Shown: piece by piece, positions 1 to 59,985 of the stretch
How the letters are laid out: each line of letters starts with the position of its first letter
Numbering within the stretch: position 1 is the first letter of the stretch
Origin: Methylotuvimicrobium buryatense 5G
Lineage (GTDB): Bacteria > Pseudomonadota > Gammaproteobacteria > Methylococcales > Methylomonadaceae
Length of the DNA stretch: 64,000 nucleotides
Direction of reading: 5' to 3'
Assembly: GCF_000341735.1 (NCBI RefSeq)
Contig: NZ_KB455575.1
Coordinates: 526,718-590,717, forward strand
The notes under the pieces: model-generated
What the model saw: only the letters and a program-made list of their open reading frames with translations
What the model was told of the DNA's origin: nothing
The model's database searches: none
Position numbers and translations under genes: made by a program

Positions 1-1738
1 CTTTAGCCAGAACGGAAACTTTAAGGCCCCCTAAACCTGCTGTTTTCCTTTAGCCCTATTGGTAAGGTCGCAGGTAAGATTTTAGTAACGCAATCGAAAC
101 GTTTAGGACGCATATATCTGCTATTTTCCAAGCGGGAGTGCGGGTAGCGTCGGTTGCCTAACTTATAGCATGCTAAACTAAATCCTGGCTCTCACCTCAG
201 CTTTTTTTTTTAACATGTTTTTTATATATTTTTACCCTTTTTTCGTGCATTTTTCTGATAACCCTGGGTATAAGCGCACCGCAAATATCAGAGGGTAATC
301 TCGTTCACCTAAATTTAGACGACTTTGTCAAATACATCTGCAGATCCCCTCCACAATATCCCGAGTTCAACTTCGAGTTCATCTAAAGCTTGAAAAAACC
401 CAACAATAGATATGCCATCCTCCGCCATAATATCCTTTATTAAGAGGCCAGTAAAGAGCACTTGATCAGCTTTTTAAATACCCTGCTGCCCCTCATCATT
501 TACTGCATCCGTTCTTGGAGGAAAGACATTACCGCCGTAGCCGGTATGAGGCACGGGGCTTTATATTCGGAGCATTGGTCGCATGGGAACTGGGATTGCC
601 ATTTGTACCGCTTAGAAAGCCGGGCAAATTAACCCTATGACGTACAAAGCGTCTCTTCATGATTTATGAATACGGATCGGCGACACTGGAAGCGCAATAG
701 CGATGCGTTCGAAACCGGGGGACCGCGTTTTATTGATAGACGACTTGCTGGCAACGGCGGCGAAACCGCTAAAAGCCAGTTGGCAGAACTGGTCGAGGAA
801 ACTGGGCGCAACCCGTTGAAGCCTGTGCATTTGTTCGTTGAATTGGATTCTTTCTCAAGGCCGGTGAAGAAGCTTGAAGCTTACGAAGTTCATTCGCTGC
901 TTCACTTTTAACGCGATTCTCAGTTTGACTATGCCCAAAAGCAATCCAAAACGATCGGGGCAAAAAATTAGTTTTAGAGTCCTCAAGACTACTTTTTTAC
1001 TGTAAAAAAAGTCACCCATCCCCCCGCATCGCACCAGCAAGAAAAACGCTCATTCAGTTGCGACTTGCCCAAACGCAAGTCCAGAAACGATCGGGCAAAC
1101 GCGTTAGTTCTCATGCGTCCAACGACTGGATATCACGGCAAATCCATGGCCGGTGTGACCTATAGGCGCCAAACTTAAGGTGAAAACGAGTCCACTTGCC
1201 GCTCCGCGCTAGGACTGCCACATTGCCTTCGGACTACTGCAGGGCATTCGGCGGCTATTGGATACCAGTGTGAATTCTGCGACCTATATTGAATTTTCGT
1301 GCCAAATATTACAGAGTGTTGGCAAGTCGTACATGCTAGAGCTGATCGACGGTGCGTTGAGCTCATGCATGAGCGGCATTCGACCCTGGACGTATTCACC
1401 CGAGCTCTTATCGCAGTTGCGTCACAATCTGCAGTTACCGGTAATGTTGTACGCCCGATTCTGGCTGACGATATTGTCCGAATTACTGGACATTGCAAGA
1501 TGGCTGTTTTTTCAAGAAAATGATGCTCTGGCAAATTAGCCGGTCCAGAGAGCGCCCGATCGACAGGCGTCGGGGCAGGGAGCCGCCGTCGAGCCCTACA
1601 TGGACGTATTCACGGCCGTCCTGTCGGGCGAGTGACCCGCACCTCCGCCACCAGAGAACTTTCAATTTGCCGCGGGCGATGGCTAGGGTTCATGAACGAT
1701 AGGTTTAATAAAGATAAAAATAGTTGAAAATGACAGCC
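1..1738. other. No supported gene; degraded or low-quality stretch
   Basis: No reading frame here resembles a protein family I recognise. Short open frames occur on both strands (for example 666-911 plus and 1175-1534 minus), but they overlap one another, lack convincing ribosome sites and have unlike composition. A degenerate B-type repeat lies near 1544-1650. Given the many apparent single-base indels in the next 1.5 kb, this stretch may be a decayed region or a poorly sequenced contig end. Confidence 0.5.
1544..1650. repeat. B-type palindromic repeat, degenerate copy
   Basis: It matches the B elements at 59684 and 59881: a GACAGGCGTCGG-type arm, the CATGGACGTATTCACGG core, then the answering CCTGTCGGGCGAGTGACC arm. 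The downstream text (CCACCAGAGAACTTTCAATTTGCC) also matches the flank of the 59684 copy, so the repeat unit extends beyond the hairpin. Confidence 0.65.
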
Positions 1739-2566
1739 CTAATTTTTATCCCAGGCGCTTGATCGGTTAATTTTTTCAGCATCATTTTCTTCAAAAAACG
1801 CTTCTTCCCAATTCCAGCATTCGTCAATATCGTCATTAGCGTCGGCGTTTACATTACCGTCATTTATCAGATTGTTACGCCACTGAAGATAAGATTCTCG
1901 GGGTATACATAGGGTCCAATGCCGCCTCATCAATGAACTTCAACGCACCGTCAGCATTAGCTCTAGCATTGACAACTTCCAACACTTGTAAATACTTGCA
2001 CGCCGGCATTCCAACATAGGTCCGCAGGATTCGCGCCGCGGTATCCAATACCGCCCCGGAATGGCCCCTGGTGGTCGAAGGCCTAAAAATGGCAGCATTA
2101 TAAATAAAGAACCCTGAGGAACTCCCCACACCGCGAAGGTCTGATCAAAATCTTCTTCATGATGCTCCAATCCCATATCGGTTGCGATATCGAGCAAAAC
2201 CACCCAGACCCACCGTAGAATTCACCAAAAAACGCCCGGAATCCTCGGCACTTTGCTGAAACTTACCCTGCAAGACATCGTTGATAACTGTATTAATGGT
2301 TTTTAGATTGCCGAAAAAGTTGCTGACTCCAGTCCGAACAACATCCGGCGCTACCGTTTTTATAAGCATTGGCGACAGGTTCGGCGACATAATTCGTCAA
2401 CCGTCATATTAAAAGCGTACACCTTACGGTTTATGTCTTCGTAAGGATCTACTTCCGATACCGATAAATCTTGATTCGCCGTCGTCGTGCAACCGCTTAA
2501 CGCATAAGCCTGAGCACAAAGAAAAACGACAACAATTCGCTTAAGCTTGCTACTCATAATTCGCAT
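1739..2566 (-). pseudogene. mlaA: Broken mlaA-like outer-membrane lipoprotein gene (VacJ family)
   Basis: MlaA family proteins are outer-membrane lipoproteins that extract phospholipids in the Mla pathway. The 5' part encodes a lipoprotein signal with a lipobox-like LSGC, then the family motif DPYEDINRKVYAFN. Further fragments in other minus-strand frames continue in family order: a segment with NSTVGLGG, one with FGQTFAVWG-like DQTFAVWGVPQG, and a C-terminal AALDP..YLQWRNNLINDGN region ending at 1739. At least four frame changes (near 2390, 2200, 2110 and 1930) separate them. Either the gene is inactivated or the sequence carries indel errors. It follows the broken mlaC-like gene by a few bases, so the two formed one operon. 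Confidence 0.75.
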
Positions 2567-2572
2567 AAAAGC

Positions 2573-3215
2573 CTATTGTTTGGAATAAAGATCGATTTTT
2601 TCGCTGATTTTTTCGATCAGTACATCATAGCCGTCCCGTTTCAAGATACTGCCGTACTCCGAACGCCTTAAAGCCAAATCGCTGACACCGTTGGCAATGA
2701 TGTTGATTATTTTTCCAGCTATTGCCTTTTTTCTTCAACATATAATCGAATTTAACATCCTTTATCATCGGGTATGACCAAATAAGTATGCACGATGACA
2801 CCGCCTCTTCCGGTCTCTTCCTCCGATTCGAATTTAAACGATTCGCCGGAGTATTCCTTGAAATTGTGCGCGTATGACGCAAACACTGGATCGACTAAAC
2901 ACCTTCGACAAAATTTATTTTTGTTGATCCGACGACCATATTCTCCCAATTGCTGCGATGAAACCCTGGCAAAATACCTGGTATTCATAGAATCGAAATG
3001 CGTCGGCTTTCAATTACGGTTTTCAAGCTTATCGAAACGGCCTTTATAACCTAGCTCCCTTACCGTTTTTCATAACATCTAATAACTCGTCTTGAAAATT
3101 TTCACGATCCCCGAGCCGTCCCTGCATGAGAATATCTCTCCGGCATAGGCATTCTTACCGTCGAGGCCAAGGACCAAAGGCAGCAAAAAAGAACCGATAT
3201 TTTATTGATTAGACT
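2573..3215 (-). pseudogene. Broken mlaC/HpnM-like periplasmic lipid-binding protein gene
   Basis: MlaC (Ttg2D) proteins carry phospholipids across the periplasm; a related HpnM type accompanies hopanoid genes. Pieces in different minus-strand frames line up with this family. From the 5' end these are a hydrophobic signal-like segment ending NAYAGE, KGRFDKL, YFARVSSQQL, the SYAHNFKEYSGESF motif, the DVKFDYMLKKKGNSWK strand, and the C-terminal IANGVSDLALRRSEYGSILK. The frame break after NSWK falls in a run of A, which fits either an indel mutation or a homopolymer sequencing error. The start is uncertain because of the breaks. The stop at 2573 lies just before the mlaA start. Confidence 0.7.
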
Positions 3216-3410
3216 CTGCTGACATAAAACACTGCCAGAAAGCAATGCCATTAATCCGGCATGCTATTGCCGGCCGGGTAAAGAAGACATACCAACTTTC
3301 GATGGCTTCGGGCAGATCAAAAGCTCGCTTGGTTGCAAACTCGTCCGTGCCGAAGGTACCCCGGTCTTTGTTAAACTCGAAATTCTATTTGTTATGCGAA
3401 AGGGCACGAT

Positions 3411-3620
3411 GGTTATCCGCTTACCGGGTGATTGGCGGGCTTTGTATACGATGAGGCTCTGCGTGGGAATGTATGAGTACCGCTCCAGGTCTCGCGGCTG
3501 GCTTCCACGCTCCAGCGTGGGAATGCAGCCCGAGACGCTGGAGCGGTACTCAAGCATTCCCACGCAGAGCGCTCATCGTTATACACAAGTCCCGCCATAC
3601 CAGCCGGTAAGCGGATAACC
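3411..3620. repeat. 210-bp inverted-repeat (MITE-like) element
   Basis: The ends are a perfect inverted repeat (GGTTATCCGCTTACCGG at the left, its complement ending at 3620). The two arms stay complementary with interruptions for about 95 bp each, including CTCTGCGTGGGAATG and GAGTACCGCTCCAG against their complements near 3535-3572. The whole unit can fold into one long hairpin. It has no coding capacity. The motif GCGTGGGAATG recurs upstream of sixA (about 6361-6388). Confidence 0.8.
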
Positions 3621-3625
3621 AGCAC

Positions 3626-3857
3626 GTAGCCCGTATGTAGCGTAACGAAATACGGGAATGGCGTGGCTCCGAGGTTCCCGGATGAAGCGCAACGTAATCC
3701 GGGGTACGCTTGGCAGGACGAGGTTTGCAACCTCGTCCGAAACGTTTTGATCCTGCCGAAGCCCATTGAAACGTTGGGGACGGGTTAAATAACCCGTCCC
3801 GCAGAAGTGGCTACGACTGGTCACTGCTCGGACAATTGGCTTCAGCAAGCTGAAGCA
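3626..3857. repeat. Cluster of short REP-like palindromes
   Basis: Several perfect or near-perfect hairpins follow each other: GACGAGGTTTGCAACCTCGTC, split as GACGAGG/CCTCGTC around 3718-3738; GGGACGGG/CCCGTCCC around 3777-3800; and GCTTCAGC/GCTGAAGC around 3840-3856. The last lies just past the 3' end of the parA-like gene and could act in 3' mRNA processing, though no U-run follows. Confidence 0.6.
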
Positions 3858-3890
3858 TCTTGCTAATCAGGTTAATTTTTAAACAAGTTT

Positions 3891-4631
3891 CTACAAATTA
3901 AGGTTTATTTCTTCCCAGAGATCTTGATAGGCCTTTATCGAACGGCCGCTTTTGACAAAGCCGCCCAGAGGCATGCGTTCCAAGCCCATCCGCTCGATGT
4001 CGCTGGCATAAGGGATCGCGGATTTCAGCAATTCAGGATATTGTTTAGGCATCGTTTCAAGGATGTCTAGGTGCATTTTTTTGCGGCGGTCGACCATCGA
4101 AAAAAACGGCAAGATTTGTATTTTTTTATTTTTTTCTTTCTTAATAAATTGCTTCAGTTGATCCAGCGTTCGTATCGAAAGCGTCGTTGGAATGACCGGC
4201 GACAGCAATATGTCGGCGGCTTTGAAGACGGCTTCCGATAATAATGAAATGCTCGGCGGACAATCCAAGAAAATAAAATCGTACTCCTGAGAGAGCGGTT
4301 TCAATAGTTTTTCGAGCTGATGTGTCGGTTTTTTCTTGCTTTCCAGAACTAAGTCAAGGTTTCTAAAAGAAAAATCCGAAGGCAATAAATCAAGGTTATC
4401 GAAATCGGTGCCTTTTATCATATCGTCCAATTCACGCTTTCCATCGATCAATTTTTTGCTGCCGCCCTTGATTTTAGGCTTGATTCTGAAATAGTAGCTA
4501 CTCGCCCCTTGCGGGTCGAGGTCCCATACTAAAGTACGTGAACCACCTCGTGCCGCCAAATAAGCAAGATTGACGGCCGTGGACGTTTTTCCTACACCGC
4601 CTTTGATGTTGAACGTTGCAATGATTTTCAT
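3891..4631 (-). CDS. ParA/MinD-family ATPase, orphan
   Basis: This 246-residue protein has the deviant Walker A motif KGGVGKTS close to the N-terminus (residues about 10-17), a switch I-like DLDPQGASS near residue 40 and a Walker B-like FIFLDCPPS near residue 120. These define ParA-type ATPases, which form nucleotide-dependent dimers and position DNA or protein cargo. No parB or parS is visible next to it, and the neighbour is a CYTH-CHAD gene, so a role in chromosome partition is not supported. It more likely positions some other cargo. The gene is transcribed after the CYTH-CHAD gene on the same strand with a 39-bp gap, so they may form an operon. Confidence 0.85.
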   Translation of the reverse strand: MKIIATFNIKGGVGKTSTAVNLAYLAARGGSRTLVWDLDPQGASSYYFRIKPKIKGGSKKLIDGKRELDDMIKGTDFDNLDLLPSDFSFRNLDLVLESKKKPTHQLEKLLKPLSQEYDFIFLDCPPSISLLSEAVFKAADILLSPVIPTTLSIRTLDQLKQFIKKEKNKKIQILPFFSMVDRRKKMHLDILETMPKQYPELLKSAIPYASDIERMGLERMPLGGFVKSGRSIKAYQDLWEEINLNL

Positions 4632-4670: not shown

Positions 4671-6194
4671 CTAACAACCGAATAACGAATGAAACGCATC
4701 TTGAATATCGGGTTGATCGAATTCTTCGAACTTTGTCTGGAAAGCTTCTCGTGCTTGGCGTCGGCGCTTGTCTATCGTTTGAATCAAAACTCCCATTGCC
4801 AGAAACGTGTCGGCCGGGATTCCTTCGTTCATCATCTCTTCGCTAAACTTTTTCAAGGTTATCTCTTGTACTTCAAGATCTTGGAATTCGCCTAAGATAT
4901 CCTGGAAATGTTTCAGGCTTTTAATCAAGGATTTGATTTCGTTTTCCGGATACAGATTTTGAAAAAACTCCATAAGATATCTCAATTTTTTACAGGTTTT
5001 TCGTAAGTCGTGCAGTTCCCCCGGAGGCGATTGATCGGTGATGCGTTGCCCATCTTTGATAATGCGTCGGAAAACTTTTAAGATGCGCTTGTCGGCCAAT
5101 GTCTTGATCGGTAACAAGGCATTGGCTTGAGTCGGTTTTTTGATCGTCGGCGAGCGTAAAAACTCTTCCCATTCGATTAGCGGCGCGATATAGTCCGGCG
5201 ATTTTAATTTACTGGCTAGATTCTTTTGCGCTTGCTTTTGTTTTCGGTCGATAAAATCGTAAAGCGGGTTTAAGTCTTCCCTAAGTGCAGGCGGCACGCT
5301 TTTCTTATAATGCTCGAAATCGAGTAAATAAACGTCGAGATCGCGTGTCGGAGTCGTAATTTGACCCAGCCAGGCAAAAAAATGGCTGAAACGTGCCGTT
5401 TCGGCTTCGGGTAAAACATTTTTTAATTGATTGAGTCCGGCGCGAGTTCTCCGTACAGCGACTCTAAAATCATGCAAGAATTCGCTGTCGGTAGCCGCGA
5501 TGGTGTCTTGCTCGTTGATTTTGATGGCTTTTAGTAAGTAGCTGAAAATATATTTAACCGCAAGATCCGAGCGCATGTTCGGATCGAGCTTGACGTTGAG
5601 CTTAGAGGTATAATCTTTCGGTTTTCGTCCTTGAGTTTTAAGCGCGTCGATTAATGGCGGTTGATTGGACTCGACCAAACCGATGCGAATCAAGGCCTCG
5701 ATGAACTTAAGCGCGGCTTTATCGTAGCCTTTTATCGGGGTTAATTGAAGCCGGCAAGGGATATATTCGAAGGTATCGATCATTAGTTTCAATACTGTCT
5801 TTTCATCTTTATTCAGTACATTGACAAATTTTCGAGTACATTCCAGCGTCGTCAGCGGTAGTAGAGCGCGCATTTCGAGTAATGGAGCGAGTATATTACG
5901 AATGTTTTCCGACGGAAATTCTTTCGCGAACTTGGGGACAGAATCGAGGTCGGCCGAAGCAATCAGTTGGCCGGTATGAAGGTTTTTCAGCGTTAAAATA
6001 GAAACCGTTTGGGAACGATTTAATTCGCAGATTATACCGCTTCGATAAAGGCGCCAGTCGAAAGTATCATAATAAGATATTAAGGTATAGTGTTCGGAAA
6101 CCGGGTTTAAATTCGCCTTGTCAGCCAATTGGCTCAAAAATTTGTTAGCGGTCAAATACCCCGGGAATTCAAAGTTCAAAGTTGTTGTGGTCAT
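4671..6194 (-). CDS. CYTH and CHAD domain protein
   Basis: This 507-residue protein has an N-terminal CYTH-like half (residues 1 to about 200) and a C-terminal CHAD half (about 210-500). CYTH enzymes are metal-dependent triphosphatases; CHAD is a helical domain rich in basic residues that binds polyphosphate. CHAD hallmarks are visible: LHDFRVAVRRTRAGL near residue 242 and LHDLRKTCKKLRYLMEF near residue 410, each with the conserved histidine. In the CYTH part the usual ExExK triad at the N-terminus reads NFEFP, so the first glutamate and the lysine are missing and triphosphatase activity is doubtful. It lies beside sixA and the pst operon, suggesting a phosphate or polyphosphate theme. Confidence 0.85.
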   Translation of the reverse strand: MTTTTLNFEFPGYLTANKFLSQLADKANLNPVSEHYTLISYYDTFDWRLYRSGIICELNRSQTVSILTLKNLHTGQLIASADLDSVPKFAKEFPSENIRNILAPLLEMRALLPLTTLECTRKFVNVLNKDEKTVLKLMIDTFEYIPCRLQLTPIKGYDKAALKFIEALIRIGLVESNQPPLIDALKTQGRKPKDYTSKLNVKLDPNMRSDLAVKYIFSYLLKAIKINEQDTIAATDSEFLHDFRVAVRRTRAGLNQLKNVLPEAETARFSHFFAWLGQITTPTRDLDVYLLDFEHYKKSVPPALREDLNPLYDFIDRKQKQAQKNLASKLKSPDYIAPLIEWEEFLRSPTIKKPTQANALLPIKTLADKRILKVFRRIIKDGQRITDQSPPGELHDLRKTCKKLRYLMEFFQNLYPENEIKSLIKSLKHFQDILGEFQDLEVQEITLKKFSEEMMNEGIPADTFLAMGVLIQTIDKRRRQAREAFQTKFEEFDQPDIQDAFHSLFGC

Positions 6195-6981: not shown

Positions 6982-7429
6982 TATGCAATCGTTCCGCAAT
7001 GGAATAATGGCGTTAGGATTTCGTAATAAATAACGTCCTGGAACTATGCGCTTTGTTGAGGGTTCGGTAACACGCTTGGCAGGACGCCGTGAATACGTTC
7101 GTGTAGGCTTGACGGCGGCGACTGATTGCCAAGGATGGCATGAATGCAGATTTTGCATTACGCCATGGATGGCGTGTATTAGGGTACCAACAGTAGGCGC
7201 TTTAGGCGATGCAGGGCAGAAAAATGCTCCTGCATTTTCTGCATTCGTTACATCCTTGTAACTCAGCAATTGCCGAGGAGCAAAAATCTGCAAGCGCCAT
7301 GGATGGCGTGAATGCAGATTTTGCAGGAGCAAAAATCTGCCGCCGAAACCTGCCAATCGAGCAACCGAACCCTCCGAAAATAGGGAAGTTATTTACGACC
7401 AAATCCTTACCTTCTTAGAGAGTCGATTC
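6982..7429 (+). other. Long pstS leader, filled by a repeat element
   Basis: The space between the Pho box and pstS has no gene. Most of it (about 7021-7405) is one C-type repeat element with an inserted inner module; only about 25 bp directly before pstS is outside it. A short open frame reading across the element is a by-product of the repeat and is not supported as a gene. Confidence 0.6.
7021..7405. repeat. C-type MITE-like element with inner modules
   Basis: The ends are imperfect inverted repeats (CGTAATAAATAACGTCC at the left; complement of CGTAAATAACTTCC at the right), followed inward by GAGGGTTCGGT and its complement. Inside are the shared core GCCGTGAATACGTTCGTG and a duplicated inner hairpin built from CGCCATGGATGGCG and GCAGATTTTGCAGGAGC. 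Related C copies occur at 14595 and 46785. Confidence 0.7.
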
Positions 7430-8422: not shown

Positions 8423-8599
8423 AAGGTGAAAGGTGAAAGGTGAAAGGGGCAAAGGGGCAAAGGGGCAAAGGGGCAAAGGGGCAAAGGGGCAATCAGGACT
8501 TGACAAGTAAGTGAAATGCTAAATCATTTCACTATTCACTATTCACTATTCACTATTCACTATTCACTATTCACTATTCACTATTCACTATTCACTATA
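8418..8599 (+). repeat. Two-part tandem array: GGTGAAA/GGGGCAAA then CACTATT heptamers
   Basis: Four GGTGAAA units (8418-8445) run into five GGGGCAAA units and a partial sixth (8446-8492). A spacer contains a perfect hairpin, AGTGAAATG and CATTTCACT around a six-base loop (about 8511-8534), and nine perfect CACTATT units fill 8530-8592. The first array overlaps the pstS stop codon; the second ends about 85 bp before pstC. The same two-part layout occurs at 58082-58234, so this is a repeated composite element. Confidence 0.9.
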
Positions 8600-13559: not shown

Positions 13560-13719
13560 TATACCCATCGTAGATCAAACTTCGGCACCGGGGTGTCCGC
13601 CAAAGTACGCCGTGAATACGTCCATGTAGGCTCTATGCCAGCTCCATGCTGGCAAATCCTTTGTCGGATACCCCAGCACCACCTCGGGCACTGCCGAAAT
13701 TTGAAGTGCGAAAGGTATA
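13560..13719. repeat. A-type MITE-like repeat (160 bp)
   Basis: It starts TATACCCATCGTAGATCAAA and ends TTTGAAGTGCGAAAGGTATA. Both ends lead inward to a TTCGGCA/TGCCGAA pair, so the termini are inverted repeats. Inside is the core CGCCGTGAATACGTCCATG, a small AGCTCCATGCTGG hairpin and the arm pair GGGGTGTCC/GGATACCCC. It begins nine bases after the pstB stop codon. Confidence 0.85.
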
Positions 13720-14594: not shown

Positions 14595-14800
14595 ATTAAG
14601 GAATATGCACAAAATAACTTCCTGAAACGTTATGCTTTGTGGCGGTTCGGTGACTCGCTTGACAGGACGCCGTAAATACATCCGTGTAGACTTGACGGCG
14701 GCTTTCCCTGCCACCGACACCTGTTAATCGAGCCGCCGAACCCCCTTCCGACCTTTGAAGAAGTTTTTTTACGCTCGTTCCGAATATACTTCGCGCGGTC
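14595..14800. repeat. C-type MITE-like repeat
   Basis: The left end TAAGGAATATGCACAAAATAACT is, apart from its length, the complement of the right end of the 46785-47034 copy. Inside are GGTTCGGTGACTCGCTTGAC, the core GCCGTAAATACATCCGTG and the answering arm TCGAGCCGCCGAACCCCC. This copy lacks the inner GCAGATTTT module seen in the others. It lies between phoU and the convergent Uma2 gene. Confidence 0.7.
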
Positions 14801-15454: not shown

Positions 15455-15648
15455 TATCCCCTTTGCTGGTCAAATTTCGGCGCCTGGGTGTCCGGTCGAT
15501 TTTCGCTCCTGCAAAATCGACATTCACGCCATCCATGGCGCTCATAAAGGCTTTGCCAGCATGGAGCTGGCATAGAGCCTACATGGACGTATTCACGGCG
15601 TCCTTTAGCGGACACCCAGGCGCCGAATTTTGATCTACGACGGGTATA
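15455..15648. repeat. A-type repeat with an inner module (194 bp)
   Basis: The right end TTTTGATCTACGACGGGTATA matches other A ends; the left end is degenerate (TATCCCCTTTGCTGGTCAAA). The arms GGGTGTCC and GGACACCC pair. Compared with the 13560 copy, an extra inner hairpin is present, CGATTTT...AAAATCG, next to CGCCATCCATGGCG. The core CATGGACGTATTCACGGCG lies in the right arm. The element ends four bases from the end of purD. Confidence 0.8.
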
Positions 15649-15651
15649 TGT

Positions 15652-16960: not shown

Positions 16961-17184
16961 TACTCCCTTTATACTCAAAAAATGGCTAACTTTATGAAGG
17001 TATGGGGTGTGGCTAGCGAGGATGTCGGCATCAGGGCAGATTTTTGCTTCTGCTAAATCTGCATTTACGCCATCCTTGGCGTTCGATTGCTGCCGTCAAG
17101 CCCCCATGGATGGGTTTACGGCGGTCCTCGATAGACATATCTCATACCTTTTTTCTTAGACGGTTTTTCAATCAAAAGGGAGTA
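16961..17184. repeat. D-type MITE-like repeat (224 bp)
   Basis: It has perfect 10-bp terminal inverted repeats, TACTCCCTTT and AAAGGGAGTA. Inner arms GGTATGGGGTGTGGCTAGCG and CGATAGACATATCTCATACC are roughly complementary. It contains the inner hairpin module GCAGATTTTTGCTTCTGC...AAATCTGC and a diverged core, CCATGGATGGGTTTACGGCGG. A shorter copy lacking the inner module lies at 49621-49796. Confidence 0.85.
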
Positions 17185-20422: not shown

Positions 20423-21175
20423 GGTTTTAGTTAACAGTGAATAGTGAAAGCTGGCTTGGGACGCTGGGGCGTCACTACCATTAACTTAGAAAAAGCATTT
20501 TGTCCATGAAATACACGAAAATATTCAATTAGTTATGCTATCCAAGTTGCTCACCCAATAGGTGGGTCAAGGGATTTCTGTAACCGTATGATTAAGTTCG
20601 TATATTTCTTGATTTTCGTGGGCTATACCAGGGTAAACGCATTAAAACTACATATAAAATCAAATGGTTATAATACGTAGTATTTTCAGTAATTTCATAG
20701 CGGCAGCCTTTATTGCCACAAAATAAAAAACTAACAAATAAAATATTCTGCAAGCTTAGGTTGAATAGTCATAACATATTGATATGGCATTTATTTTAAT
20801 GCGTTTGCCCTGTGGGCTATACCTTTCGCACTTCAAAATTCGGCACCGGGGTGTCCGTCAAAGGACGCCGTGAATACATCCCTGTAGGCTCTATGCCAGC
20901 TCCATGCTGGCAAAGCCTTTGCCGCACACCCCGGTGCCTCCTCAGGCACTGCCGAAATTTGAAGTACGAAAGGTATAAGTTAAACCGTCACAGAATAATA
21001 ATTCTGGCATTCAGGTTTGAATGTGCTTCAAAAGCCTGTCATCCATGGCGGAATGACGTGTTTCCCTTCACTTAATGACAGTGACGTTGGGGCGTCCCAT
21101 GGTACGAGGGTATGACTTTTAATATCTTGCTAAATCACCTGCAAAACGTTTAGCTGCGAATCCATAATCCATTTA
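20423..21175. other. Gene-free AT-rich gap upstream of dusB
   Basis: No coding region is supported in these 753 bp. The part 20480-20815 is AT-rich and may hold the dusB-fis promoter. An A-type repeat occupies 20818-20977. Two related motifs bracket the gap in inverted sense: GGGACGCTGGGGCGTCAC at 20458-20475 and GTGACGTTGGGGCGTCCC at 21081-21098. Confidence 0.5.
20818..20977. repeat. A-type MITE-like repeat (160 bp)
   Basis: It runs from TATACCTTTCGCACTTCAAA to TTTGAAGTACGAAAGGTATA, nearly perfect inverted ends. It contains CACCGGGGTGTCC/ACACCCCGGTG arms, the core CGCCGTGAATACATCCCTG and the AGCTCCATGCTGGC hairpin. Length and order match the 13560 copy, but both ends here are of the same (CACTTC) kind. 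Confidence 0.85.
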
Positions 21176-30249: not shown

Positions 30250-30385
30250 AACGAGAGACTCGGTCAATTTGTACTGGAGTTTCGGTTTTAAAATCCCTAT
30301 ATTGTACCGTTTAATCCGGGATAAGGCAGCGGGGCAATTTTTCGCCGACCTTGGTTCATTGATCTTGAGCGGGTGAAAATGGGTT

Positions 30386-30460
30386 TATAACTTTCGTACT
30401 TCAAGTTTCGGTAGTGCCCGAGGACACCCCGGTGCCGGATTTTGATCTACGATGGGTATA
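30386..30460. repeat. A-type repeat, internally deleted (75 bp)
   Basis: Both ends are kept (TATAACTTTCGTACTTCAAG and GATCTACGATGGGTATA) and both inner arms (TTCGGTAGTGCC, GGACACCCCGGTGCCGG), but the core CGCCGTGAATACGTCC and the AGCTCCATGCTGG hairpin are missing. It lies between the divergent cutA and fxsA genes. Confidence 0.75.
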
Positions 30461-33529: not shown

Positions 33530-33599
33530 CATATCGACTATGGTTTGAGTCAATCAAAACGTTTGGGCAGCAATTCCCAGTTTGAACATGTTCTCGCAG

Positions 33600-33770
33600 T
33601 TTAGGGTGGAGAGCATGCCTGTCGAGGAACGCCGTGAACCGGTCCGTGGTGGCTTGACGGCAGTTCGAAGGCCAAGGAAGGCGTGAATGCAGATTTTGTA
33701 TTACGCCATGGATGGCGTCTATTATGGCACTAACAGTAGGCGTTTTAGGCGCGTTGTAGCCCATATGCAG
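33600..33770. repeat. Degenerate D/C-type repeat with inner module
   Basis: The text includes CCTGTCGAGGAACGCCGTGAA, resembling the reversed D arm plus core, then GGCGTGAATGCAGATTTTG, CGCCATGGATGGCG and CTAACAGTAGGCGTTTTAGGCG, which match the inner parts of the 7021-7405 element. The terminal inverted repeats are not recognisable. Confidence 0.55.
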
Positions 33771-33790: not shown

Positions 33791-33950
33791 ATCGCGACGA
33801 AGGCGTCGCTCCCACAGCCCGCTGTTAACCCTTTGTGGGAGCGATCCCCTGATCGTGATTTCGAGGTCGAAAGTATTAGGCAACAATAAATGGTATCGAA
33901 GACTCATTGGCTAAGATAGCAAAAGGGTAATACATTACTTGTGTATAACG
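33791..33950 (+). repeat. E-type repeat, left copy of a direct pair
   Basis: It starts ATCGCGACGAAGGCGTCGCT, contains CCCACA...TGTGGGAGCGATCCCCTGATC, then AACAATAAATGGTATCGA and CAAAAGGGTAAT. A copy in the same orientation lies at 45250-45409; the two are similar over their full 160 bp. The first half can fold as a hairpin (GTCGCTCCCACA against TGTGGGAGCGAT). Confidence 0.85.
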
Positions 33951-44683: not shown

Positions 44684-44731
44684 AAAAAGGCGTCTGCCAT
44701 GCGATAAGAGGGTTATCGCATGAGAGACGCC
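44684..44731 (-). terminator. Leader terminator before nrtA
   Basis: On the minus strand GGCGTCT-CTC-ATGCGATAA, a five-base loop, then TTATCGCAT-GGC-AGACGCC and five T. It is a strong 7+9 bp stem with a small internal loop, ending 33 bases before the nrtA start. Placed in the leader rather than after a gene, it must be passed by antitermination for the operon to be expressed. Confidence 0.85.
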
Positions 44732-44743
44732 TTTGTCCGGTGT

Positions 44744-44781
44744 GCTCGACAGTGAGCTTGTCAGTTACTCCATCGTCGGAG
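44744..44781 (-). promoter_or_regulatory. Twin hexaloop hairpins, ANTAR-protein (NasT/NasR) target
   Basis: On the minus strand two small hairpins stand 10 bases apart: CTCC-GACGAT-GGAG and GCTC-ACTGTC-GAGC. Both have six-base loops with G at position 4; the second also has A at position 1. Paired hexaloops with A1 and G4 are the known target of ANTAR antiterminators such as NasR and NasT. The leader terminator follows 12 bases later, the arrangement needed for antitermination. No ANTAR gene is in the window. Confidence 0.75.
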
Positions 44782-44796
44782 ATTTATTAGTATTTA

Positions 44797-44813
44797 AGCA
44801 ATTGCAATGCCAA
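44797..44813 (-). promoter_or_regulatory. Sigma-54 promoter of the nitrate operon
   Basis: The minus strand reads TTGGCATTGCAATTGCT, with GG and GC exactly 10 bases apart, against the consensus YTGGCACGRNNNTTGCW. A start about 12 bases on (near 44787) would put the first hexaloop hairpin at the very 5' end of the RNA. Confidence 0.8.
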
Positions 44814-44963
44814 TAGTGAGATAGTTTTCGAATAGTAATTAATAGTTCAATGATAACAATAGGCTATGGTGAGAAGGGTTTTGAGAAGGGAGGGAGGGCT
44901 GTTTTCCACTGGGGAAGCGATGACATGATTTAGTGCAGAGAGAGTCATTGCCAGGGTAGTACG

Positions 44964-44999: not shown

Positions 45000-45160
45000 T
45001 ATACTCATCGTAGATCAAAATTCGGCAACGGGGGCTCGTCAAAGGACGCCGTGAATACGTCCCTGTAGGCTCTGTGACAGCATCCCTGCTGTCAAAGCCT
45101 TTGCCGAACACCCGGGCGCCTCCATGCGTCAATGCCGAAATTTGAAGTGCGATGGGTATA
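45000..45160. repeat. A-type MITE-like repeat (161 bp)
   Basis: It runs from TATACTCATCGTAGATCAAA to TTTGAAGTGCGATGGGTATA with inner TTCGGCA/TGCCGAA, the core CGCCGTGAATACGTCCCTG, and a GACAGCATCCCTGCTGTC hairpin in place of AGCTCCATGCTGG. It sits upstream of the nitrate operon control region. Confidence 0.85.
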
Positions 45161-45490
45161 TACCTATTGTGCAAAAAGTAGCGACCGAACGCTAAATTGT
45201 TGTGTTGTCCGGAAAGACTATTGGTGTTTGAGTGTTACTGGCTTCGATAGTCGCGACGAAGGCGTCGCTCCCACAGAGGGCGGCGGACGCTCTGTGGAAG
45301 CGATCCCCTGATCGCGATCTCGAGGCCGAGAGTGTTAAGTAACAATAAATGGTATCGAGGTCTCATTGGTTAAGTTTGCAAAAGGGTAATTTTTTTCTTA
45401 TGTGTAACGATGAGCGCTGGGGCATGGGAAAGAGCGGAATGCGGGTTGGCCGTTTTTAGCTTGATGCGTATGGGATTCGGGACGTTCTCG
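45161..45490. other. Gene-free gap between nitrate operon and diguanylate cyclase gene
   Basis: Apart from the E-type repeat at 45250-45409 I see no feature in this 330-bp stretch. Confidence 0.45.
45250..45409 (+). repeat. E-type repeat, right copy of a direct pair
   Basis: It starts GTCGCGACGAAGGCGTCGCT and follows the 33791 copy through GCGATCCCCTGATCGCGAT, AACAATAAATGGTATCGAGG, CTCATTGGTTAAG and CAAAAGGGTAAT. It has the same orientation as the 33791 copy, so the two bracket the RNase/inhibitor pair and the nitrate cluster as direct repeats. Confidence 0.85.
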
Positions 45491-46567: not shown

Positions 46568-47144
46568 GTATCAATAGACAAGATCGACGATCATCCGTGA
46601 GTCATACTGTAATTTCTAAGCAGGTGTTCGGCTGGTGTCTCGGATTGCAAGGGTAGTTTGTAAAGAATGCGTCGGAGCGTTACGAGATCGATTTTTCTTA
46701 TGGTTTTTTTTATACAGAAGAGCTTAGTTTATTCATTTCATTTTACAAGTGTCTTATCTCGTTATATACATCGCACATCTCTTGCTCTTTAGGAACGAGC
46801 ATGAAATAACTTCGATAACTTCTGGGAGGGGGTTCGGTGGCTCGATTGACAGGTGTCGGCGGCAGGGCAGATTTTTGCTCCTGCAAAATCTGCATTCATG
46901 CCATCCATGGCAATCAGATTCCGCCGTCAAGCCTACATGGAAGTATTCACGGCGTCCTGTCAAGCGAGTCACCGAATCGCCGCAAAGCCTACTACTTGTA
47001 GCAGTTATTTTGTGCATATTCCTTAGACGGTTTTTTCGATCGAAAAGAAGTAGCAAAAGCGATAAATAAAAACCAATGAGTAAAAAATTTTCGGATACCT
47101 TTATAATTAATCCTAATGATGATTACCCTTCAAACGTTTAACAA
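46568..47144. other. Gene-free gap with a C-type repeat
   Basis: This is the divergent space between the diguanylate cyclase gene and the REC-GGDEF-EAL gene. Apart from the C element at about 46785-47034 I see no feature. Promoters for both genes must lie here. Confidence 0.45.
46785..47034. repeat. C-type MITE-like repeat with inner module (about 250 bp)
   Basis: The right end AGTTATTTTGTGCATATTCCTTA is the complement of the left end of the 14595 copy, so the two lie in opposite orientation. Inside are GGGGGTTCGGTGGCTCG, the inner hairpin GCAGATTTTTGCTCCTGC/AAAATCTGC with CCATCCATGG, and the core CATGGAAGTATTCACGGCG. Confidence 0.75.
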
Positions 47145-49620: not shown

Positions 49621-49796
49621 TACTCCCTTTATACTCAACAAATGGTTAACTTTATGAAGGTATGGGGTGTGGCTAGCGAGGATGTCGGCAGCAGGGATCG
49701 CTGCCGTCAAGCCTCCATGGATGGATTCACGGCGGTCCTCGATAGACACACCCCATACCTTTTATTCTTAGACTGGTTTTCGATCAAAAGGGCGTA
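49621..49796. repeat. D-type MITE-like repeat, short form (176 bp)
   Basis: It starts TACTCCCTTTATACTCAA eight bases after the preceding stop codon and ends CAAAAGGGCGTA. Arms GGTATGGGGTGTGGC and CACACCCCATACC pair. It lacks the inner GCAGATTTT module of the 16961 copy. The core is CCATGGATGGATTCACGGCGG. It separates the response regulator from the sensor kinase. Confidence 0.85.
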
Positions 49797-52137: not shown

Positions 52138-52522
52138 CCGGAAAATCTTTTCAAGAGCTGGAAAATAGACACTATTGGCACGGATAGACATTGATCGCAC
52201 GAAGTATGTCCGTTCAATTTATACTCATCGTAGATGAAAATTCGGCCTCGGGGTGCCCGTTAAAGGACGCCGTAAATACGTCCATGTAGGCTCTATGCCA
52301 GCTCCATGCTGGCAAAGCCTTTATGAACGCTATGGATGGCGTGAATGTCGATTTTGCATTACGCCACGGATGGCGTGTATTAGGGCAATGCAGGAGCAAT
52401 TGCCGAGGAGCAAAAATCGACCTAGCACCCCGAGGCCTCCTCCGGCACTGCCGAAATTTGAAGTGCGAAAGGTATAGCTTTATTTTCCTCACAGCAATAA
52501 CTTTACTTTAGACAATTCAGAC
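52138..52522. other. Gene-free gap with an A-type repeat
   Basis: The A element at 52220-52476 fills most of this 385-bp gap. The last 46 bp before cysM should hold its ribosome site; no clear promoter is seen. Confidence 0.45.
52220..52476. repeat. A-type repeat with large inner module (257 bp)
   Basis: It runs from TATACTCATCGTAGATGAAA to TTTGAAGTGCGAAAGGTATA. Compared with the 160-bp copies it carries an extra 95-bp insert built from ATGGATGGCGTGAATGTCGA, TTACGCCACGGATGGCGTG and GCAATTGCCGAGGAGCAAAA, the same kind of module as in the C element at 7021. The core CGCCGTAAATACGTCCATG and the AGCTCCATGCTGGC hairpin are present. Confidence 0.85.
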
Positions 52523-55481: not shown

Positions 55482-55493
55482 CCGGAGTTAAAC

Positions 55494-56078: not shown

Positions 56079-56080
56079 GC

Positions 56081-57424
56081 ATGGCGCGGAGAAAAAGGGA
56101 ACGTAAAAAATTACCGGACACCCCCGTTAAAACCATCATCGATTCGCTGACGCATGACGGGCGAGGGGTTGCCCATGTAGACGGCAAGGCGGTATTTATC
56201 GATGCGGCCTTGCCGGGTGAGGAACTCGAATTTGTCTATACCGACATTCGCCGCGATTTCGCCGAAGGCCGGGTCGTCAAGCTATTGAATAAGGCCGAGT
56301 GCCGCGTCGAGGCCGAATGCCCGCATTATGACGTATGCGGGGGCTGCAGTTTTCAGCATGTCGCTTCAAGCGAGCAAATCCATATTAAAGAGGAATTGCT
56401 GAAAGAGCAGTTTAAACGCATCGGTAAGCTCGATATTCCCGAAATTTGGCCGTCATTGGACGGGCCGCATTGGGGTTATCGGCGCAAGGCGCGCATGGGT
56501 GTCAAATATGTCGCGAAAAAAGGCAGAGTGCTCGTCGGTTTTCGCGAAAAGCGCCAACCGTTTTTGGCCGAGATCGAAAGCTGTAAGGTCATGCATCCGG
56601 TTATCGGAACGCGCTTAATGGCTTTATCGGAGATGATCGGCGGCTTGACGATCAGAGAGAAAATTCCGCAAATCGAAGTTGCGATCGGCGATGAGGATTG
56701 CGTGCTTGCGGTACGCGTACTGGAGCCGCCGACCGACGAGGATAAGGAGCGAATGCGGTCTTTTGCACATAAGCATAATGTGACCTTGTGTCTACAGTCG
56801 AAAGGCCCCGATACGATTGCGCCGATTGATGGCGAACCGGTAGTAACCCCGACCTATGCTTTGCCGGAGCACGATATTGTATTCCGGTTCAGACCGGCGA
56901 TGTTTACGCAAGTCAATTATGAAATCAACCGGCTAATGGTCAACCGGGTCATTGAAGCGTTGGATTTAACTAAGGACGATGTCGTGCTGGATTTGTTCTG
57001 CGGGCTTGGAAACTTTACCTTGCCGATGGCTCGTTATGCAGGGAAAGTGGTCGGTATCGAAGGCGATTTGCCGTTGGTCAATCATGCACGGGCGAATGCC
57101 CGCTTAAACAATCTGGATAATGTCGAGTTTCACGCAGCCGACTTGAGCAAGGCGATTGTCGATTTACCGTGGGCGAAACAGCGCTATAACAAAATTTTGC
57201 TCGATCCGTCGCGAGCCGGCGCATCGGAGGTATTGCATCATTTCAAGCAATGGCAGCCCGAAAGTATCGTCTATGTCTCGTGTAATCCGTCGACCTTGGC
57301 CCGCGATGCAGGCATTCTGGTGAACGATTTAGGTTTTAAACTGGTAAAAGCCGGCGTCATGAATATGTTCCCGCAAACCGCGCATGTGGAATCGATTGCG
57401 CTGTTTAATGCCGCTGATCGGTGA
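56081..57424 (+). CDS. rlmD: 23S rRNA m5U1939 methyltransferase RlmD
   Basis: RlmD methylates uridine 1939 of 23S rRNA. The 447-residue product starts at 56081, two bases after the preceding stop. It has an N-terminal TRAM domain (KTIIDSLTHDGRGVAHVDG), the [4Fe-4S] cysteines in ECPHYDVCGGCSFQH near residue 85, the SAM motif VLDLFCGLGNFTLP near residue 305 and the catalytic cysteine in YVSCNPSTLARD near residue 405. It ends the probable cysM-ydbH-lipoprotein-rlmD operon. Confidence 0.95.
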   Translation: MARRKRERKKLPDTPVKTIIDSLTHDGRGVAHVDGKAVFIDAALPGEELEFVYTDIRRDFAEGRVVKLLNKAECRVEAECPHYDVCGGCSFQHVASSEQIHIKEELLKEQFKRIGKLDIPEIWPSLDGPHWGYRRKARMGVKYVAKKGRVLVGFREKRQPFLAEIESCKVMHPVIGTRLMALSEMIGGLTIREKIPQIEVAIGDEDCVLAVRVLEPPTDEDKERMRSFAHKHNVTLCLQSKGPDTIAPIDGEPVVTPTYALPEHDIVFRFRPAMFTQVNYEINRLMVNRVIEALDLTKDDVVLDLFCGLGNFTLPMARYAGKVVGIEGDLPLVNHARANARLNNLDNVEFHAADLSKAIVDLPWAKQRYNKILLDPSRAGASEVLHHFKQWQPESIVYVSCNPSTLARDAGILVNDLGFKLVKAGVMNMFPQTAHVESIALFNAADR

Positions 57425-57535
57425 ATGAAAAGGGCAATAAACATCAATTCGGAATCGACGCGCCTATCGAAGGGGGCGGGCCTATGATGAAATCAAATCG
57501 ATAAATAATACGTTTAATAATTCAAAGGTTAAAAA

Positions 57536-58081
57536 ATGGTAAATAAAGTATATCAAATCAAAGTTTCGTTGGATGGTTCTACTCCACCTATTTGGCGCCG
57601 TTTATTGGTATCGGAAGACGCGAATTTGCAGCAATTGCACGATATTATTCAAGTTTCGATGGGATGGTTTGAATCGCATTTGCATCAGTTTATCGCCGAT
57701 GGCGTTTTTTACGGCGTACCGGACGAAGAGTTTGACTTAAAGGATGAAAGTCAACATACGATTTCTGAGCTTCTGAATCAGGAAATGCAGGAAATTAAAT
57801 ACGAATACGATTTCGGCGATAGTTGGATGCATACGATTACACTAGAAAAAATCCTATCTAACGATGACAATGGCGGCCATTTGCCTCGTTGTATAGAAGG
57901 CGAACGCGCAGCACCGCCTGAAGACTGTGGTGGTATTCCAGGTTATGAAAACTTGCTCAAAATCCTAAGCGATCCGGAAAATCCGCAATATGATGAAATG
58001 CACGAATGGTTGTCAATCGATGAATTCGACCCGGCCTATTTCGATATGGCAGATGTTAATGACGAGTTGCTGGATTTATAG
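57536..58081 (+). CDS. Plasmid pRiA4b ORF-3 family protein
   Basis: The family, named after a plasmid frame, is widespread and of unknown function. The 181-residue product has the typical start VYQIKVSLDGSTPPIWRRLLV, here split as VYQIKVSLDGS and PPIWRRLLV, then LQQLHDIIQVSMGW, HLHQFIADG, YEYDFGDSWMHTI and the acidic CIEGERAAPPEDCGGIPGY. It has its own 111-bp leader after rlmD. A purine array (GTGAAAG then AGGAAAG units) begins directly after its stop codon. Confidence 0.88.
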   Translation: MVNKVYQIKVSLDGSTPPIWRRLLVSEDANLQQLHDIIQVSMGWFESHLHQFIADGVFYGVPDEEFDLKDESQHTISELLNQEMQEIKYEYDFGDSWMHTITLEKILSNDDNGGHLPRCIEGERAAPPEDCGGIPGYENLLKILSDPENPQYDEMHEWLSIDEFDPAYFDMADVNDELLDL

Positions 58082-58234
58082 GTGAAAGAGGAAAGAGGAA
58101 AGAGGAAAGAGGAAATTAGGATTTGACTAGCGGTTAAAATGTCGCACCATTTCACTATTCACTATTCACTATTCACTATTCACTATTCACTATTCACTAT
58201 TCACTATTCACTATTCACTATTCACTCTTCACTA
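58082..58234 (+). repeat. Two-part tandem array: AGGAAAG units then CACTATT heptamers
   Basis: GTGAAAGAGGAAAGAGG-type units (about 58082-58115) are followed by a spacer resembling that at 8490-8530 (ATTAGGATTTGAC against ATCAGGACTTGAC). Then come ten perfect CACTATT units (58153-58222) and a CACTCTT variant. The array begins right after a stop codon and ends about 10 bases before the L,D-transpeptidase start, so it lies inside or beside that gene's leader. Confidence 0.9.
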
Positions 58235-58242
58235 ATAAACCC

Positions 58243-58731
58243 ATGAAATCTAACTCATTCATCGACATTTCGATTCCCGTGCAACGATTGGTAATTGTCG
58301 ATGAAGGTAGGGTTGTAAAGTCGTATCCCGTTTCTACGGCAAAAAACGGCGCCGGCGAATTGAGGGGCAGCGAATGTACGCCGCGCGGCTGGCATAAGAT
58401 TCGCGCGAAAATCGGTGAGGGTATTCCTGTCTATTCCGTTTTCAAAGCACGTAGGCCGACCGGTGAGATTTATTCACCGGAATTAGGCAAGCAATTTCCG
58501 GAACGCGATTGGATTTTGACTCGAATTCTCTGGTTGGGCGGCCTCGAGCCGGGAAAAAACCGTTACGGTTCAGTCGATACGGCCTGGCGTTATATTTACA
58601 TTCACGGTTGCCCCGACGAACTGATGAACGGCAAGCCCGAATCGCACGGCTGCATTCGTATGATCAATGCCGATCTGATCGATTTATTCGAGCGCGTTGC
58701 GATCAATACCGAAGTTTATATTCATGAATAA
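58243..58731 (+). CDS. L,D-transpeptidase (YkuD-fold) without signal peptide
   Basis: YkuD enzymes cross-link peptidoglycan or attach lipoproteins through a catalytic cysteine. The 162-residue product is essentially the catalytic domain: IPVQRLVIVDEGRVVKSYPVS at the start (in part), STPRGWHK-like CTPRGWHKI, and the active-site signature YIHGC followed by SHGCIRM near residue 135. No signal peptide or anchor is visible, so it may act in the cytoplasm, be exported in another way, or the start is further upstream inside the heptamer array (not supported). It is followed 15 bases on by truA. Confidence 0.88.
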   Translation: MKSNSFIDISIPVQRLVIVDEGRVVKSYPVSTAKNGAGELRGSECTPRGWHKIRAKIGEGIPVYSVFKARRPTGEIYSPELGKQFPERDWILTRILWLGGLEPGKNRYGSVDTAWRYIYIHGCPDELMNGKPESHGCIRMINADLIDLFERVAINTEVYIHE

Positions 58732-58745
58732 ATTATTAGATTGAG

Positions 58746-59564
58746 ATGCCTAGAATCGTTTTAGGAATCGAATACGACGGTAGCGCTTTTTTCGGTTGGC
58801 AATGGCAAACCGCGCGGCGCACCGTTCAATCCGAGTTGGAAACTGCACTGTCCAAAATCGCCGACGAGCCGATTACGATAATCTGTGCGGGCCGGACCGA
58901 TGCCGGCGTGCATGCGCTCGAGCAGGTGGTGCATTTCGACACGCAAGCCGAGCGATCTATGTACGGATGGATGATGGGCGGGAATACGCATTTGCCCGAT
59001 GACATCAGGATTATTTGGGCGCAACAGGCGGTTTTCGATTTTCATGCCCGTTACAGCGCTATTGCCCGGTTTTATCGCTATGTCATCTTGAACAGGCCGA
59101 TGAAATCGGCGTTGCTGCGCAAACAAGTCACATGGTGCTATCAGTCGCTTGATGCCGATAAAATGCATCGAGCGGCACAATATTTGATTGGCGACCATGA
59201 CTTTTCGTCGTTCAGGGCGCAAGGCTGTCAATCCAAAAGTCCTTGCCGCATGATGCATTTTATCGATGTTTACCGCGAACAGGAAAAGGTCATTATGGAT
59301 ATTTCGGCCAATGCGTTTTTGCACCACATGGTCAGAAACATTGCCGGCGTGTTGATGGAAATCGGTATGGATAAACAGCCGGTCGATTGGGCACAAGAAT
59401 TATTGTTGATCAAGGATCGCGATCAAGGCGGAATCACAGCGCCGCCCGATGGCTTGTATTTAGGTGGCGTTTATTATCCGGAACATTACGGCATTACTAA
59501 GCATCCGGTATTCGATAAACTGCCGTCCGATGCAAAACGTTTCGATGATCGTCCGAAAGTTTAA
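58746..59564 (+). CDS. truA: tRNA pseudouridine synthase A
   Basis: TruA converts uridines 38-40 of the tRNA anticodon arm to pseudouridine. The 272-residue product begins RIVLGIEYDGSAFFGWQWQ, has the catalytic aspartate in CAGRTDAGVHALEQV near residue 52, the DDIRIIWA and FHARYSA segments, and the C-terminal NAFLHHMVRNIAG motif near residue 195. Length is as expected. It is probably co-transcribed with the L,D-transpeptidase gene. Confidence 0.96.
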   Translation: MPRIVLGIEYDGSAFFGWQWQTARRTVQSELETALSKIADEPITIICAGRTDAGVHALEQVVHFDTQAERSMYGWMMGGNTHLPDDIRIIWAQQAVFDFHARYSAIARFYRYVILNRPMKSALLRKQVTWCYQSLDADKMHRAAQYLIGDHDFSSFRAQGCQSKSPCRMMHFIDVYREQEKVIMDISANAFLHHMVRNIAGVLMEIGMDKQPVDWAQELLLIKDRDQGGITAPPDGLYLGGVYYPEHYGITKHPVFDKLPSDAKRFDDRPKV

Positions 59565-59683
59565 ATTATAGCGCTTCCAGTGATGACTTCATACAAAGCC
59601 TTTTTTACTGTAAAAGTTCGTAGATTTGGGTTCTTTATCTAATTTTTCGATATAAGAAGCTCGGCAGAGAAAATGCCGGTTCC

Positions 59684-59792
59684 GGAGAGGGTGCGGTTGC
59701 TCGACCGACAGGCGTCGGCGGCAAGGACAGCCGCCGTCGAGCCTACATGGACGTATTCACGGCGTCTTGTCGGGCGAGTGACCGCACCCTCC
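59684..59792. repeat. B-type palindromic repeat, first of a tandem pair
   Basis: Outer arms GGAGAGGGTGCGG and CCGCACCCTCC pair; within them TCGACCGACAGGCGTC faces GTCTTGTCGGGCGAGT. An inner GGCGGC...GCCGCC hairpin precedes the core CATGGACGTATTCACGGCG. Confidence 0.85.
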
Positions 59793-59880
59793 AACACCAA
59801 GAGCTTTCATTTGCCGAGGCGATGCTTGGCCTTTATGAACGTTACTGTGAAAGTGCGCCATCTAAAGTACGCGATCAAAA

Positions 59881-59985
59881 TAGGGTGCGGTTTCTCGACA
59901 GACAGGTGTCGGCGGTAGGGAAAGCCGCCGTCAAGCTTACATGGATGTATTCACAGCGTCCTGTTTGGCGAGTTACTGCACCCTA
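59881..59985. repeat. B-type palindromic repeat, second of a tandem pair
   Basis: Arms TAGGGTGCGG and TGCACCCTA enclose CTCGACAGACAGGTGTCGGC, GCCGCCGTCAAGC and a core with two changes, CATGGATGTATTCACAGCG. It lies about 90 bp from the end of the first copy, same orientation. Confidence 0.85.

Follow-up and report, generated by a model that had tools for sequence, protein, structure and literature searches.

High-copy intergenic palindromes have been known in bacteria for decades without a shared explanation of their inner sequence. Among the closest described families are the ERIC/IRU/RU-1 repeats, which are intergenic and palindromic and have TA at their ends and as target duplication, and the YPAL/RU-2 repeats, which target regions of dyad symmetry or their surroundings (PMC2229807). 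A 64,000-nt stretch of the Methylotuvimicrobium buryatense 5G genome (the window, C1:526718-590717 in a host genome of 5.07 Mb) contains elements that resemble both, and that fall into outer frames, here called A to E, with unrelated ends around one shared core. We favour, with modest confidence, the interpretation that several families of miniature inverted-repeat transposable elements (MITEs) share one RNA module of the type bound by CsrA, a global RNA-binding regulator. The old question of the inner sequence would then have a single testable answer, a conserved RNA module that is common to elements with unrelated ends and has one predicted protein partner.

Frame A comes closest to ERIC, whose termini (TATAC..ACTTCAA) resemble its right end. 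Unlike a true ERIC copy, frame A is similar at the ends only (z 1.7-4.8 for the strand with GGA loops in five A copies, against mononucleotide shuffles), one copy each of B, C and D scored z <1, and the one E. coli copy examined (L289) showed by eye no double ANGGAN hairpin. We therefore rejected frame A as plain ERIC, since the 127-bp consensus was not matched and the ends alone were alike. The consensus of Ysr224 (RF02770), a Yersinia small RNA (sRNA), contains the core, and with 150 of 1519 candidates scored its model gave 31 matches at E<=0.001 in the host genome. The best of these, at 37.7 bits, lies below the 70-bit gathering score, however, and the Rfam model is on the opposite strand. 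Ysr224 is among the 20 most prevalent Rfam sRNAs (PMC9029176), a prevalence that fits a repeat; the available portions of PMC9029176 and PMC12112432 yielded no link between Ysr224 and CsrA.

Paired GGA motifs in hairpin loops, with an ANGGAX hexaloop on a stem, are also found in the sponge RNAs CsrB, RsmX, RsmY and RsmZ, but those are host regulatory genes, whereas the elements here are dispersed mobile repeats. TwoAYGGAY (RF01731) and the reverse complement of Bacillaceae-1 likewise consist of two adjacent GGA-loop hairpins with motif-predicted CsrA binding; unlike the present elements, they are proposed sRNAs of Clostridia and of Bacillales/Lactobacillales and are not described as mobile in the available text (PMC4333381). 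Neither matched the window up to E=10. REPs and REPINs with RAYT are high-copy intergenic palindromes as well (PMC3733652), but the elements here are longer, have terminal repeats and target duplications, and lack a fixed GTAG or CGTC tag; the GTAG-like letters of the core covary as part of stem P2, described below. A RAYT/REPIN origin was rejected, as none of the four Y1_Tnp genes of the host genome has a core within its locus. One of these genes (L032, C1:2992044-2995394) has on either side repeats of its own, marked by a GTAGCCCGTATG motif, which form a separate REP-like family.

A double hairpin with conserved GGA loops

On the strand opposite that of the core in the original prediction, hereafter the GGA strand, the core comprises an outer stem P1, a hairpin P3, a linker, a second hairpin P2 and the returning arm P1'. 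P2 has the form GCC-NNN-[ANGGAN]-N'N'N'-UUCAC-GGC, and P3 a free stem closed by a C-[ANGGAN]-G loop, which in the host genome varies from 5 to 7 nt and holds A(N)GGA. An example on the minus strand at 13609-13653 has P3 with a C-AUGGA-G pentaloop, then P2 with a C-AUGGAC-G hexaloop and the UUCAC bulge.

The sample of the host genome comprised the window and 80 stretches of 20 kb each (1.664 Mb in all) and gave 243 core matches, 212 of them with <=2 mismatches and complete flanks. When this sample was searched with the loop left free, ANGGAN occupied the P2 loop in 162 of 171 copies, while a reversed-pattern control gave 11 matches. By position, A was present in 167 copies, the variable N was T in 110, G in 31, C in 19 and A in 11, each of the two Gs was present in 168 and the last A in 169; without constraint on the closing pair, the loop was flanked by C in 165 copies and by G in 167. 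Leaving the bulge free returned GTGAA or GTAAA, as read on the strand of the original prediction, in 147 of 156 host copies, and leaving its length free returned 5 nt in 154 of 155. Copies reached solely through their flanks supplied 18 P2-like hairpins, for which TCC was required in the loop, with bulges GTGAA (14), GTTAA (2) and GTAAA (2).

The same loops occur in other genomes. The P2 loop was ANGGAN in 59 of 60 copies from 20 genomes, loci that had been fetched with a pattern fixing part of the P2 loop, the closing pair and the bulge, with one mismatch allowed. No pattern ever fixed the P3 loop; among 56 parsed copies, 48 had GGA in it on this strand and 2 on the opposite one. Two further sets, with eight copies common to both, gave 26 of 28 versus 1 and 31 of 31 versus 0. 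For an alignment, 36 loci and five window copies were picked by hand; 39 parsed and 31 were used, leaving out L124 and seven copies whose register is shifted by a longer P3 stem. In these 31 copies, which came through a parser requiring TCC in the P3 loop (GGA on the opposite strand), 96.0% of cells were paired (68.5 in shuffles) and covariation was 0.703, compared with 0.185 in shuffles and 0.09-0.13 when slid by 1-3 columns. Both partners change in all nine P1 pairs, in six of the seven pairs of P3 and in two of the three pairs of the upper P2 stem, and the loop-closing pair was C-G in all 31 copies for both hairpins, that of P2 being partly fixed by the search pattern and that of P3 not.

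Because loops and pairing persist across families, the core looks selected. Core divergence is 0.024-0.059; in A, B, C and E it is lower than in either the left 45 nt or the right 80 nt, and in D it equals that of the left arm (0.048 and 0.046); the copies compared were picked by their core, which biases these values, and the loop-free and bulge-free searches agree with them. The expectation that the core is conserved beyond the rest of the element is therefore borne out in four frames, with the D core about as conserved as its left arm.

Single-stranded folds accept G.U better than A.C, and isolated mispairs can therefore indicate which strand is folded. We applied a strict test, in which stems were ungapped and each mispair had two standard pairs on either side; it kept 87 of 213 host copies and 99 of 142 others, the rest, including copies with a long inner module, scoring <9. 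Read on the strand of the original prediction, unique mispairs in 16 groups outside the host genome were A.C in 47 cases and G.T in 11 (p=2e-6; 11 groups to 1, with 4 ties), and those in the host genome were A.C in 24 and G.T in 8 (p=0.007), plus 25 unique other mispairs; this test was defined after looser ones, the sets overlap and the copies are related by descent. An excess of A.C on that strand means G.U on the GGA strand. Looser counts pointed the same way for consensus-pair cells of the host (428 vs 299, unique 154 vs 117, with 193 of 211 copies kept) and for a first foreign set (unique 80 vs 38, p=1.4e-4). A strand-specific structure of the core is supported by these counts, and the strand chosen by wobble pairs is the one with the GGA loops, an agreement that need not have arisen.

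Mobile frames, their spread and a possible exchange of centres

The terminal sequences of A to D are as originally given, but the count of four frames was incomplete, because a fifth, E (CAGCAATTCCCA...TGGGAATTGCTG), exists and is represented in the window by one truncated copy (~33568-33751). Frames were assigned from the 10-12 nt before the core with <=4 edits, a lenient rule under which some copies are missorted, and 211 of the 212 sampled cores were placed: 100 in A, 36 in C, 35 in E, 28 in B and 12 in D, with one unassigned. On the right, 85 of the 100 A copies ended as expected, as did 31 of the 35 E and 9 of the 12 D copies; the right-end marker of B also occurs in C, so that this check is silent on C. 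Ten of the 212 copies join the inner left end of one frame to the right end of another (A, B and D), and may be hybrids or wrongly sorted. Terminal inverted repeats paired within 60-420 bp in 94 A, 36 E, 25 C and 10 D copies, and 83 of the 94 two-ended A frames contain a core. An inner module was present in 19 of 100 A, 12 of 36 C, 6 of 12 D, 18 of 35 E and 5 of 28 B copies, the last figure being doubtful because the right end is of A type in 4 of the 28 B-sorted copies and of C type in others. By eye, one inner stem is common to B and C and another to D and E. The same-genus relative G370 adds a sixth frame with a degenerate core (L152). Also in L152 (~5030-5590), the core of a C element harbours a small palindrome between duplicated TTCAC sequences.

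Frames A, C, D and E are mobile, and A/D and E differ in target duplication. By eye, TA is duplicated in two nested A copies, D has a TA duplication with an empty orthologous site in G370, and C has AT and ATA duplications at two sites that are empty in the same genus. Among the 36 two-ended E copies, duplications of >=5 bp flank 23, and the length is exactly 9 bp in 21 of those (mean of shuffles, 0.70). Terminal inverted repeats in these four frames, target duplications and empty orthologous sites are the marks of bacterial MITEs. Unrelated ends and differing target duplications around one core agree with the independent movement of frames that a modular system had been expected to show, and the frames do not look like products of simple decay of one element. 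Two other arrangements were seen in other genomes: a head-to-tail array of six elements, repeating every ~227 bp, in G601 (L182, 1500-2660), and a composite insertion between inverted ACGGCGGAGCCCC ends, with two cores in opposite orientation, in G708 (L231, 6605-7385), at a site that is empty in G799.

The mixing of ends and cores had been attributed to recombination between elements or selection on the core. Selection fits the loops and pairing kept across families, while recombination is indicated only indirectly, by centres that recur with different arms, by a centre that has changed at an orthologous site and by the ten mixed-end copies. Copies in one genome have unrelated arms around a near-identical centre. 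Among 31 genomes of genus g312, orthologous copies from several species keep their stems with both arms changing together, and at locus 3 the G804 copy has a different P2 and P3 at the orthologous site (both by eye). Different perfect arms in the copies of one genome had raised the idea of snap-back, or of insertion into pre-existing palindromes; this was ruled out by eye at g312 loci 4 and 5, where the empty sites have neither arm, the remaining loci being too unclear for use. Since the empty orthologous sites at two loci contain neither arm, the arms arrive with the element. An exchange of centres between arms would be the simplest reading of these sequences.

Core abundance in the host is not due to chance. 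The 18-mer of the original prediction with <=3 mismatches matched 592 times in the 5.07 Mb genome (reversed pattern, 2), and a generalised 23-mer with <=1 mismatch 588 times (reversed, 0). An orientation that depends on chromosome region was rejected, because an apparent gap in plus-strand matches at 1.55-3.01 Mb looks like an artefact and the loci sampled there have cores in either orientation. Placement is mostly intergenic, with 8 of 212 copies within open reading frames (ORFs) of >=200 aa; 41 host copies fall within open-ended ORFs of >=100 aa, many of which are possibly spurious. Spread through the class is patchy. The 23-mer occurred in 63 of 369 sampled genomes of the class, with >=5 copies in 18, spanning 18 families; the reversed control gave 9 matches in 8 of the 369, so that some single matches are chance. 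All five genomes searched in the same genus are rich (102 to 378 copies), most genomes of the same family have none, and a phylum sample of 398 genomes gave 13 positives, all inside the class. No E. coli genome matched a 36-mer taken from the core. Spread via plasmids or phages was rejected, as the 36-mer gave only chance-like matches (E 1 to 5).

Proposed CsrA binding and competing explanations

We propose that a single structured module is shared by several unrelated frames of MITE type, which are non-autonomous transposons and presumably depend on different transposases acting in trans. As GGA-strand RNA, this module would fold as a long stem topped by two hairpins. The module would be transcribed, on a strand to which wobble pairs alone point, and its two GGA loops, ~20 nt apart, would bind the CsrA/RsmA dimer. 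Each transcribed copy would then be a small CsrA site or decoy. The core had been suggested to be a protein-binding or RNA-processing site; protein binding is the best reading of it, although on the opposite strand.

CsrA binding by the GGA-strand loops appears likely from their sequence. The high-affinity Csr/Rsm consensus is an ANGGAX hexaloop, in which N and X can vary, seated immediately on a stem; AGGGA and AAGGA pentaloops bind well too, and two extra loop nucleotides cost 10-fold in affinity (PMC4005645). P2 fits this hexaloop consensus fully, and P3 fits it in most other genomes and in frame E. In an assay with single-stranded DNA (ssDNA) probes, RsmE bound effectively to ATGGA and AGGGA motifs only (PMC9928087), and these are the two commonest motifs here (T 110 and G 31 of 171). 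CsrA sites of this kind are generally paired because CsrA is a dimer (PMC4333381). The elements carry A(N)GGAX in more than one hairpin loop, with the high-affinity form on a stem, as is characteristic of CsrA/RsmA sponge RNAs. GGA is present in 329 of 826 hairpin loops of the elements, 248 of 1514 of other intergenic DNA and 508 of 6091 of coding DNA; a hexaloop count requiring 5-bp stems (3 of 99 in the elements) was not used, being blind to the 3-bp stems of P2. csrA is present once in the host genome, in 313 of 369 genomes of the class and in 16 of 18 element-rich genomes. Dependence on csrA was rejected, the rate in element-rich genomes being no better than that of the class. Among the open-access papers listed in literature searches, none linked these repeats to CsrA.

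Several observations weigh against this proposal. The fit of P3 is poorer in A, with its AUGGA pentaloop, and in B, C and D, with 7-nt loops of the AGGGAAA type, neither loop being one that PMC4005645 names as a best binder. The UUCAC bulge is conserved but is no part of a CsrA site. GGA loops of the inner module lie on the other strand, so that elements carrying it show GGA loops on both strands; on the AGGA strand of these inner hairpins the unique mispairs, too few for use, were 3 G.T and 0 A.C (p=0.25). The Rfam Ysr224 model sits on the UCC-loop strand, and the window has no Rfam match to CsrB, CsrC, RsmX, RsmY or RsmZ at the gathering score or E<=10. Genes show no preference for the GGA strand in sense: the core strand was sense in 67 cases and antisense in 53 (n=120), genes reading into the core strand numbered 86 vs 69 in the host and 27 vs 22 in other genomes, and two more genera gave 2 vs 4 and 3 vs 4. 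csrA was not found in G343 (53 copies, 85% complete) or G196 (8 copies, 98% complete). Looser wobble counts were flat in the host genome (unique 239 vs 231, singletons 131 vs 143) and weaker in a second foreign set (unique 49 vs 37, p=0.24) and in g312 (22 vs 15, p=0.32).

Part of this evidence would suit other explanations. An ERIC-, YPAL- or NEMIS-like hairpin for mRNA stability, processing or termination, involving RNase E or RNase III and with GGA loops serving a role other than CsrA binding, would account for long stems in mostly intergenic positions. ERIC RNA reportedly destabilises transcripts upstream of it, YPAL may have an effect on RNA stability (PMC2229807), and the sub-threshold relation is to an RNA, Ysr224, that is multi-copy and expressed in Y. 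ruckeri (PMC12112432). We nevertheless consider such a hairpin unlikely, as it would lead one to expect neither two hairpins that vary in their other pairs yet both have A(N)GGA loops closed by C-G, nor a wobble bias to the GGA strand given unbiased gene orientation. That bias would suit any single-stranded fold of the GGA strand, including one acting as ssDNA, on which a putative transposase or recombinase of HUH type would work, recognising bulge and loops as happens with REP or attC hairpins. The conserved 5-nt bulge resembles extrahelical bases, and one centre is found with different arms. We doubt this explanation, however, because the target duplications, TA for A and D and mostly 9 bp for E, are of the kind made by DDE elements, and because the only Y1_Tnp genes of the host genome are the four without a core within their 3.3 kb loci. 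In addition, the core strand of the 212 sampled host cores has leading-strand sense in 125 and lagging-strand sense in 87, which opposes exposure of the GGA strand as lagging-strand template.

Descent of A to E by decay from a single palindromic MITE, leaving the core as a passive and functionless relic, seems very improbable. The core and the inner stems shared by B with C and by D with E would fit such descent, as would the absence of strand bias among unshared host mutations in the loose test (singletons 131 vs 143), but termini and target duplications differ between frames, covariation extends class-wide and mispairs are strand-specific.

Within the CsrA proposal a broader version can be put forward, speculative and to our minds possible rather than probable: a class-wide transposable superfamily would manipulate host regulation through predicted paired high-affinity CsrA sites, with hundreds of copies forming a dispersed sponge and the module being passed between unrelated frames as a survival part. 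The ERIC, YPAL and Ysr224 RNAs would be possible relatives. If this were true, genome parasites would be tied to one of the most global bacterial regulators, and genomic counts of CsrA sites would have to take in repeats.

Elements and other repeats of the window

At least 14 elements with a related core had been predicted, and 14 cores were located in the window: the 18-mer with <=3 mismatches matched 12, and those at 17100 (-) and 33631 (+) were recovered only with a looser pattern. One further A frame (30385-30460, -) has no core. A, C and D had also been described as existing with and without the inner module, and both states are present in the window for each.

Frame A without the module lies at 13560-13719 (+, core 13609-13631), 20818-20977 (+, core 20867-20889) and 45000-45160 (+, core 45048-45070), and with it at 15455-15648 (-, core 15577-15599) and 52220-52476 (+, core 52269-52291), the latter having a second insert in the loop of the module. 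Frame C lacks the module at 14597-14770 (+, core 14669-14691; right end approximate), and carries it at 46790-47024 (-, core 46931-46953) and, in two levels of inner modules, at 7014-7408 (+, core 7086-7108). The D copy at 16961-17184 (-, core 17100-17122) has the module; this is the element whose site is empty in G370, with TA duplicated. The D copy at 49621-49796 (-, core 49711-49733) is without it. Two B elements with a central palindrome lie at 59689-59784 (-, core 59741-59763), overlapping a sub-threshold RF02770 match at 59709-59812, and at 59883-59982 (-, core 59935-59957), and a degenerate B-type element lies at 1544-1665 (-, core 1594-1616; outer limits approximate). The E copy (33568-33751, +, core 33631-33653; limits approximate) keeps its left part, core and inner module and has lost its right end.

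Other repeats were also noted in the window. A 123-nt stretch at 8476-8598 recurs at 58085-58249 as overlapping copies with 14-nt spacing. A second repeat of 159 nt, 82% alike between 33792-33950 and 45251-45409, has GGGAGCGAT-type hairpins, which we take to be similar to Pseudomonas-type REPs. At 44689-44824 (-), the Rfam models of P11 (29.6 of 70 bits) and of narK (25.5 of 43.2 bits) match weakly. A 33-nt inverted repeat at 3456-3570, 94% complementary with arms 49 nt apart, apparently bears no relation to the core.

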